Assembly: GCA_007128425.1 (NCBI GenBank)
Contig: SKXL01000077.1
Coordinates: 1-64,000, forward strand
Length of the DNA stretch: 64,000 nucleotides
From: Balneolales bacterium
GTDB lineage: Bacteria; Bacteroidota; Rhodothermia; Balneolales; Natronogracilivirgulaceae
Reading direction: 5' to 3'
Shown here: positions 24,165 to 26,063 of the stretch, piece after piece
Numbering within the stretch: the stretch's first letter is position 1
Layout of the letters: each line of letters opens with the position of its first letter
The notes under the pieces: model-generated
The model's database searches: none
Seen by the model: the letters and a program-made list of their open reading frames with translations, nothing else
What the model was told of the DNA's origin: nothing
Position numbers and translations under genes: made by a program

Positions 24165-24566
24165 TAGATTTCTTCTTTGTATAATAGCTGCCCGCTGAAA
24201 TATTGTCGCGCATAACGTGCGCCGGCCGCTGTGAATCTATTCACAATATTTAATGGATTCTGCTGTTAGTAAGAAGCAGCTTGCATTTTACGAAAATAAT
24301 CTTAGTTTACGAATATAAATCGTTGCACATGTCATTTAAAATCAAACACATAACCACACGAATTTTCTGCAGGTTGCTGTGTTTGTTGATTGACTTGAAA
24401 GCAATACAAGTCTCGCATGATCTGACCAAAAACCGACTGTTCAGATCTGATAGCAACGATGATTGTTAGTTATTGATCCGGAACGATAACGGGTAGAATC
24501 CGATTCGTTGAAATTTGTCACAAACAGGGTACGGATCAGCTTCTAAACCTAAAAAAGGAGGTCGCA
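24165..24566. other. Intergenic region with a structured RNA candidate
   Basis: About 400 bases between the M16 lipoprotein gene and the KamA-family gene. At 24199-24250, AATATTGT and ACAATATT enclose two hairpins: GCGCA-TAACG-TGCGC and TGTGAAT-CT-ATTCACA. The second hairpin shares three bases with the outer stem, so the two forms compete in part. There is no T-run, so it is not a plain intrinsic terminator. The rest is AT-rich and ends in a strong ribosome-binding site. Short open frames here lack start signals and I do not call them. Confidence 0.4.
24557..24561 (+). promoter_or_regulatory. Strong ribosome-binding site for a TTG start
   Basis: GGAGG preceded by a run of A, 5 bases before the TTG at 24567. 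It is the best Shine-Dalgarno match I noticed in the window and fixes the non-ATG start of the KamA-family gene. Confidence 0.8.
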
Positions 24567-26063
24567 TTGTCTTACTTCGAATTCAAGCCAAATGAAGCTT
24601 TCTTTGTCAGTGGGAAGGCACCCAGATACAAATCGTATAATCTCAGAACCTTTGAAAAAATTCCTCAGGTAAAGAAACTGCCCGAGGAAATTCGATTTGC
24701 TATTCGGGTTGTTGGTAACGTGCTGCCTTTCAAGGTGAACAATTACGTAATAAAAGAACTTATTAATTGGGACAACATTCCGGATGACCCGATGTTCCAG
24801 CTTACATTTCCTCAAAAAACCATGCTGAAGCCGCATCACTTTGATAAAATGGCTGAGGTTTTAAAAAGAGATGCTTCAAAAGAGGAAATAAAAGCAACAG
24901 CAAATGAAATTCGAATGCAACTTAATCCGCACCCTGCCGGGCAACAGGAAGAAAACATGCCGCAACTCGGTTGCGAGACCCTGAAAGGAATGCAGCATAA
25001 ATATCAGGAAACTGCGCTTTTCTTTCCAAGTCAGGGTCAAACTTGTCACGCTTACTGCACCTTCTGCTTCCGATGGCCGCAATTTGTTGGTATGGATGAA
25101 CTCAAGTTTGCAATGAAAGAATCGGAACTTCTGGTCGATTACTTGAAACAGCACCCTGAAGTCACCGATGTACTATTTACCGGTGGAGATCCCATGATTA
25201 TGAAAGCCAGGGTGCTGGCTTCCTATATTGAACCGCTCCTTGATGCTGATTTGCCCAACCTGAGAAATATCCGAATCGGAACCAAGGGACTTGCATATTG
25301 GCCATACAAGTTTGTAACAGATTCCGATGGCGATGAAATGCTTGATCTTTTCAGAAAAGTGACAGATTCCGGTCTTCATCTCGCTATTATGGGGCACTAC
25401 TCAAATCCGATCGAGCTGGAAACCGATATACACAAGGAAGCCGTCCGACGTATCCGCTCCACAGGCGCTCAGATCAGAACACAATCACCATTGCTGAGGC
25501 ATATCAACGACAGCTCGGATGTATGGGCCGATATGTGGCGTGAGCAGGTGAAACAGGGCATGATCCCCTACTATATGTTCGTGGTTCGGGATACCGGCGC
25601 ACGACATCATTTCGACATACCACTTGAGCAGGCATGGAAAATATTCCGCGGAGCTTACAAACAGGTCAGCGGAATTGCCCGGACCGTACGCGGTCCCAGC
25701 ATGTCGGCAGGCCCCGGAAAAGTTCAGGTACTTGGAGTGAGTGATGTGGCAGGTGAAAAAGTATTTACGCTTCGATTTATCCAGGGAAGAAATCCGGACT
25801 GGACCGGACGCCCGTTCTTTGCCAAATACAACAAAAAAGCCGTTTGGCTGGATGATCTTGAACCGGCTTTCGGAGAAAAAGAGTTTTTCTTTGAAAAAGA
25901 GTCGGAACAACTGATAAGCGAAGATTCCGGCAAAGAATCCGGCAGGTCGAATACTCAAAAAAGAAATGGATACTCCAACGGAGCGACCAATGGCACCTCC
26001 AACGGAAAATCAAGCAGTAAAGAAAAGCTGGATCTGAAAAAAATCGTCGATGATGTGAACTGA
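24567..26063 (+). CDS. KamA-family radical SAM aminomutase-like protein
   Basis: 498 residues. The radical SAM cluster motif is TCHAYCTFCFRW (Cys-x3-Cys-x2-Cys), preceded by ALFFPSQGQ. Later motifs are DVLFTGGDPMIM and SAGPGKVQVLG, whose lysine should carry the PLP. This is the plan of lysine 2,3-aminomutase. But aligned without gaps (from memory) to the clostridial enzyme, the two aspartates that hold the lysine side-chain amine become Arg (in PYYMFVVRDTG) and Ser (in RGPSMSAGPGK), so lysine is an unlikely substrate. The last 45 or so residues are low-complexity (Gly, Ser, Asn, Lys). TTG start supported by a strong ribosome-binding site. Convergent with pyrC, 11 bases apart. Confidence 0.85.
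   Translation: MSYFEFKPNEAFFVSGKAPRYKSYNLRTFEKIPQVKKLPEEIRFAIRVVGNVLPFKVNNYVIKELINWDNIPDDPMFQLTFPQKTMLKPHHFDKMAEVLKRDASKEEIKATANEIRMQLNPHPAGQQEENMPQLGCETLKGMQHKYQETALFFPSQGQTCHAYCTFCFRWPQFVGMDELKFAMKESELLVDYLKQHPEVTDVLFTGGDPMIMKARVLASYIEPLLDADLPNLRNIRIGTKGLAYWPYKFVTDSDGDEMLDLFRKVTDSGLHLAIMGHYSNPIELETDIHKEAVRRIRSTGAQIRTQSPLLRHINDSSDVWADMWREQVKQGMIPYYMFVVRDTGARHHFDIPLEQAWKIFRGAYKQVSGIARTVRGPSMSAGPGKVQVLGVSDVAGEKVFTLRFIQGRNPDWTGRPFFAKYNKKAVWLDDLEPAFGEKEFFFEKESEQLISEDSGKESGRSNTQKRNGYSNGATNGTSNGKSSSKEKLDLKKIVDDVN

Follow-up and report, generated by a model that had tools for sequence, protein, structure and literature searches.

A clade of lysine 2,3-aminomutase-like radical SAM enzymes with two arginines at the substrate pocket, predicted to act on glutamate

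The lysine 2,3-aminomutase (KAM, or AblA; model TIGR03820) of C. subterminale belongs to the KamA family. In its structure (2A5H), Arg134 is a ligand of the substrate α-carboxylate, and two aspartates, Asp293 and Asp330, bind the substrate lysine. In the classical glutamate 2,3-aminomutase (EAM) of Clostridioides and Desulfitobacterium (model TIGR04368), the pocket residues are Lys and Asn (PMC3965090). EpmB, another relative, acts on the protein EF-P. IdnL4 of the incednine pathway is a presumed glutamate 2,3-aminomutase; no activity was seen in vitro, and incorporation studies showed that the incednine starter has a β-glutamate intermediate (PMC11284099).

Among the identified metabolites of Nitrosopumilus maritimus SCM1, β-glutamate ranks first in abundance, with an intracellular concentration of about 730 mM; in ocean profiles it is higher at depth than at the surface, and the metabolomics paper makes no mention of an aminomutase (PMC8269262). 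In the open-access literature, to which our search was confined, we found no paper that names a gene for this pool or connects it with an aminomutase. In methanogens, NMR work ruled out the glutamate aminomutase route, so other routes to β-glutamate are possible; in Methanohalophilus, β-glutamine is made from β-glutamate by glutamine synthetase (GS) (PMC1224877).

The window, the whole stretch of 64,000 nucleotides of Balneolales DNA that was analysed, lies on contig C78 of a 2.93 Mb genome in 263 contigs. It contains a KamA-like open reading frame of 498 residues, which starts with TTG at position 24567 behind a strong, textbook Shine-Dalgarno sequence and encodes the only KamA-family protein of its genome. 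The features of the gene are given below:

24555..24562, + strand: Shine-Dalgarno sequence AAGGAGGT, 4 bases 5' of the TTG start
24567..26063, + strand: KamA-like radical SAM/PLP enzyme of 498 aa, predicted glutamate 2,3-aminomutase of the two-Arg clade
25044..25067, + strand: CX3CX2C cluster motif, C160/C164/C167, invariant in 139 rows
25071..25073, + strand: Arg169, equivalent to KAM Arg134 in the 2A5H alignment and the orthologue rows
25587..25589, + strand: Arg341 at the KAM Asp293 site, predicted ligand of the side-chain carboxylate; Arg in 139 of 139 rows
25689..25691, + strand: Arg375 at the KAM Phe327 site; Arg in each of the 137 rows that have a residue at this position
25698..25700, + strand: Ser378 at the KAM Asp330 site; Ser, Val or Ile across the clade
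25719..25721, + strand: Lys385, equivalent to KAM Lys337, the PLP Schiff-base lysine
25929..26060, + strand: Asn/Gly/Ser-rich linker (about residues 455–484) and short C-terminal helix-like motif

A phmmer search of the PDB with the protein found 2A5H (E 7.6e-20), and both pocket positions were aligned without gaps. As read in this alignment and again in a 70-row superfamily alignment, KAM residues D293, D330, R134, K337 and C125/C129/C132 correspond to R341, S378, R169, K385 and C160/C164/C167 of the window protein, respectively. Like KAM, the protein contains the CX3CX2C motif, a PLP lysine within a G-K motif and the carboxylate-binding Arg, and it is predicted to adopt the KAM fold; it is thus a member of the KamA/radical SAM PLP aminomutase superfamily. 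A first-pass annotation of this DNA had proposed a KamA-like enzyme with the cluster and PLP-lysine motifs kept and both lysine-binding aspartates replaced, by Arg and Ser, and our alignments bear out both statements. Acidic residues at both pocket positions, which that annotation had named as counting against its reading, were not seen in the window protein in either alignment. In the superfamily alignment, D293 and D330 are both kept in control KAMs from Chloroflexota, Bacteroidota and Thermoproteota.

The two pocket changes differ in weight. Among 139 orthologous rows, position 378 is Ser in 125, Val in 8 and Ile in 4; because Val and Ile also occur, Ser378 is incidental and was dropped as a specificity argument. 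Judged from the same rows, Arg341 is the diagnostic change. The proposed Arg is therefore general to the clade, and the proposed Ser is real but not an essential trait. Arg375, which the first-pass annotation had not named, is a better candidate than Ser378 for part of the pocket; both R341 and R375 are predicted to contact the substrate, given the places of D293 and F327 in KAM. The clade signature, in 2A5H numbering, is K112, Y113, T116, R134, R at 293, R at 327, S/V/I at 330 and K337. Different from KAM, the window protein has Asp293 replaced by Arg, Asp330 by Ser, Arg112 by Lys, Arg116 by Thr and Phe327 by Arg, and it shares about 20% identity with KAM in the structural alignment. The clade resembles EAM in that the Asp pair is replaced, with a positive residue among the replacements, and in its predicted substrate, glutamate; however, the Lys and Asn of EAM stand against Arg and Ser/Val/Ile in the clade, which also carries Arg375.

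The structure of the protein was modelled with AlphaFold2 from a 45-row alignment (pLDDT 89.1, pTM 0.85). The model has the KAM fold, and its top PDB match is 2A5H (E 2.2e-17, probability 1.00). The first-pass annotation had also described the N-terminus and the tail as different from classical enzymes. The first 130 residues fold with confidence in the model and in part match the KamA model TIGR00238, which aligns from residue 26, so they are a family trait and no peculiarity of the window protein. The low-complexity tail is the Asn/Gly/Ser-rich linker, which ends in the short helix-like motif EKLDLKKIVDDVN; it is conserved only in close Balneolales relatives, most of which carry the motif. 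A docking or targeting function is conceivable for this tail.

Curated family models place the protein outside the described enzymes. It scores 103 bits with the AblA/lysine 2,3-aminomutase model TIGR03820 (cut-off 525.4), 83 bits with the EAM model TIGR04368 (cut-off 650) and 100 bits with the EpmB model TIGR03821 (cut-off 369); at the pocket it has neither the Asp293/Asp330 pair of lysine 2,3-aminomutases nor the Lys and Asn of classical EAM. In a maximum-likelihood tree of 70 rows, one branch (99/94) separates the clade and a few R-type homologues from the Asp/Asp KAMs, the Q/D proteins, EpmB, which forms its own clade, and the long K-type proteins. The window protein falls into a seven-row group (96/91), whose other rows are the Balneolales proteins L010 and L084 and the tree's four clade members from archaea. 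We sought a classical EAM for the tree, and no Chloroflexota genome scored above the TIGR04368 cut-off. With this model, Asp/Asp KAMs reach up to 474 bits, compared to 83 bits for the window protein; classical EAM therefore lies nearer to KAM than the two-Arg clade does. This suggests that glutamate specificity may have arisen twice, EAM being placed here by model score. The clade is widespread and distinct from the curated KAM and EAM equivalogs, and it is predicted to work like EAM.

These results also bear on the reading of the protein as a true lysine 2,3-aminomutase that makes β-lysine or N-acetyl-β-lysine as an osmolyte. KamA-family membership speaks for it, as do the public records, in which homologues are annotated as 'lysine 2,3-aminomutase'. 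However, every clade member lacks both lysine-binding aspartates, the AblA score is far below its cut-off, and several carriers own a second, classical-looking KamA-family gene (Asp/Asp pockets were read in G070 and G188). We regard a lysine enzyme as scarcely credible.

Several other KamA relatives were seen in the course of the comparison. Like the clade, the R-type homologues (L107, L178 and L186–L189) carry Arg at the Asp293 site, together with Arg or Lys at 327 and an IMSH-type motif (M-S or M-T) before the PLP lysine; unlike the clade, they are mostly shorter (372–409 aa) and mostly on separate branches, that of L178 being long and uncertain. Some occur twice per archaeal genome (G434, G383, G581). 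A Bacteroidota KamA clade (L181–L183) keeps Asp330 but has Gln in place of Asp293 and Asn in place of Arg112, and possibly acts on another substrate. L184, L185 and L193 are long KamA-related radical SAM proteins (open frames of about 620–750 aa) in which Lys takes the place of Asp293 and the Asp330 site lacks an Asp. Within one Bacteroidota family (G020, G052 and G106), split or partial gene copies were found, as if gene loss were ongoing.

Among archaea, the KamA-like gene was present in 38 of 300 Thermoproteota genomes. At 30 of these loci, which are mutually related so that the counts are not independent, a GS gene adjoins it on the same strand in 23 and a divergent MscS-like channel gene of about 580 aa flanks it in 29. 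The channel was assigned from Pfam MS_channel_3rd and from NCBIfam MscK/MscS matches below cut-off; in L207 and L209–L212 it is kept with no GS adjacent. A second layout, in which KamA, DUF432, small MscS and GS genes all run in one direction, occurs in the deeper archaeal lineages L218 and L222, and L219 and L221 have KamA, DUF432 and MscS genes without an adjacent GS. The small MscS of these operons matches MS_channel domains. The locus L029, labelled 'Nitrososphaeraceae', was rejected as a case of deep divergence, its gene being 89% identical to that of Nitrosarchaeum. In L218, L219, L221 and L222, a DUF432-type protein is encoded between the KamA-like gene and the small MscS gene (the assignment was tested with Pfam in L218 and L221); a channel- or osmolyte-related role is suggested for it.

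The linked GS of both layouts belong to one clade; the remaining GS copies in these genomes lie outside it (∼45% identity), and 59 fixed differences separate ten linked from eleven other copies. The substrate loop is DNASAMH in every readable linked GS, compared to D[AS]GSGMH in distal copies and NGSGMH in a canonical copy; the catalytic Arg motifs NSYKRLVP and RxEYRxPDP are kept. G412, which we take to be N. maritimus SCM1 (CP000866), has one KamA-family gene, a two-Arg clade member with GS ∼80 bases downstream. Likewise, Nitrosopumilus sp. b1 (L080) has one KamA-family match, a clade member followed by GS. Due to its position beside a special GS and an MscS channel in marine ammonia-oxidising archaea, the KamA-like gene is the best candidate for the β-glutamate of Nitrosopumilus.

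In bacteria, the gene is mostly solitary, and a Pfam tally of 100 bacterial neighbours gave no dominant conserved partner. In Thiobacillaceae L046, a Na+:dicarboxylate (GltP-like) symporter gene ends directly 5' of it. OtsA (L032) and TrkH (L040) neighbours were discarded as evidence, each being a single case. In six Bacteroidales loci (L051, L053, L057, L063, L066 and L086), the gene lies back to back with an arginine-biosynthesis cluster that is led by an acetyltransferase gene and runs divergently; this recurrent arrangement may be plain synteny.

Action on an amino acid that is part of a protein or attached to a tRNA, as EpmB acts on EF-P, instead of on a free one would suit a gene that is solitary and the sole KamA-family member of its genome. 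Against this, the EpmB-like proteins of Gammaproteobacteria form a separate clade and co-occur with the two-Arg protein as a second family member, and the GS, MscS and symporter linkages favour a small solute; a bound substrate is very unlikely.

Some actinobacterial loci have a natural-product setting. On Streptomyces plasmid L102, the orthologue is part of a type I PKS cluster. It is flanked by the genes of a hydrolase and an AspAT-like protein, and an AMP ligase is encoded next to these. The hydrolase has its best PDB match in 3WMR (480.8 bits), which we take to be VinJ, and the ligase in 5JJQ (618.7 bits), presumably the 3-aminobutyrate ligase IdnL1. With the orthologue in the place of IdnL4, the cassette looks incednine-like, for a β-amino-acid starter; cassette position alone was compared with IdnL4, and its natural-product setting differs from the stand-alone or osmotic setting of the clade elsewhere. 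On Rhodococcus plasmid pDK3 (L103), a clade member occurs with a cupin, a SidA-type N-monooxygenase, a tRNA-ligase-like protein and saccharopine dehydrogenase, in what looks like a cluster for N–N bond biosynthesis.

We also considered a 2,3-aminomutase whose substrate is non-basic but other than glutamate: glutamine, 2-aminoadipate, or a larger amino acid that is anionic or carrier-bound. Archaeal β-glutamate would then be made by another route. By itself, Arg341 means only that the substrate is not lysine; L103 and the Amycolatopsis CoA-lyase/MaoC cluster L101 have no obvious β-glutamate product; and position 378 varies, so specificity may differ between subclades. The linkage to a GS paralogue, the N. 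maritimus β-glutamate pool and the incednine-like cassette all favour glutamate, however, and another substrate seems rather unlikely. Aspartate was rejected, since a 2,3-shift of aspartate returns aspartate.

Taken together, we consider that the gene encodes a radical SAM/PLP enzyme, a glutamate 2,3-aminomutase with two pocket arginines, which supplies β-glutamate as an osmolyte, with a probability of about 0.78. The first-pass annotation had suggested the same function, and it gains strong, though indirect, support from the invariant Arg, the archaeal GS/MscS linkage, the roughly 730 mM β-glutamate of SCM1 beside the lone KamA-family gene of G412, and the incednine-like Streptomyces cassette. 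We know of no described activity for any member of the two-Arg clade. By the established chemistry of KAM, cleavage of SAM would give a 5'-deoxyadenosyl radical, the C3 hydrogen would be taken from PLP-bound L-glutamate, and the amino group would move from C2 to C3 via an azacyclopropylcarbinyl radical, while the side-chain carboxylate is held by R341, perhaps with R375. The β-glutamate formed, which is achiral and metabolically inert, would be retained as a compatible solute. Where archaea have the linked GS, part of it is probably amidated to β-glutamine, and the linked MscS channel would release solute on dilution; genomic context is the basis for the osmolyte role, the amidation and the release. 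Certain actinobacteria would use an enzyme of this type to feed the β-amino-acid starter units of macrolactams.

For the Balneolales organism of the window, we infer the osmolyte role by analogy only. The GS/MscS linkage is archaeal, whereas in the window the gene follows two M16 peptidase genes of its own strand, and a dihydroorotase gene converges on it from the other side (names from the sequences; M16 also by Pfam on the L009 copy). As close Balneolales share this neighbourhood, the gene is resident and solitary. The closest relatives of the protein in public genomes are from Balneolales MAGs with CSSed isolate names, which we take to be of soda-lake sediment origin; many other carriers, however, are non-halophilic, such as digester Bacteroidales and soil Streptomyces. 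No riboswitch, for Na+ or otherwise, was found by Rfam near the gene in the window and 11 related loci, and a search of the window's genome, run without a positive control, gave no match for ectoine synthase.

More broadly, we lean slightly towards the view that glutamate 2,3-aminomutase arose a second time, independently, in the two-Arg clade, and that this enzyme is the unrecognised β-glutamate synthase of marine ammonia-oxidising archaea. With a β-glutamate-specific GS and a mechanosensitive channel, it would there complete a module that makes, amidates and releases the osmolyte, and the aminomutase would have spread across archaeal and bacterial phyla, including the Balneolales of the window. 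As the candidate is one gene, with a GS and a channel as partners, this β-glutamate route can be tested directly. If the view is right, a large number of annotations as 'lysine 2,3-aminomutase' would be corrected, and an enzyme type that is usually oxygen-sensitive would be central to osmotic balance in aerobes.
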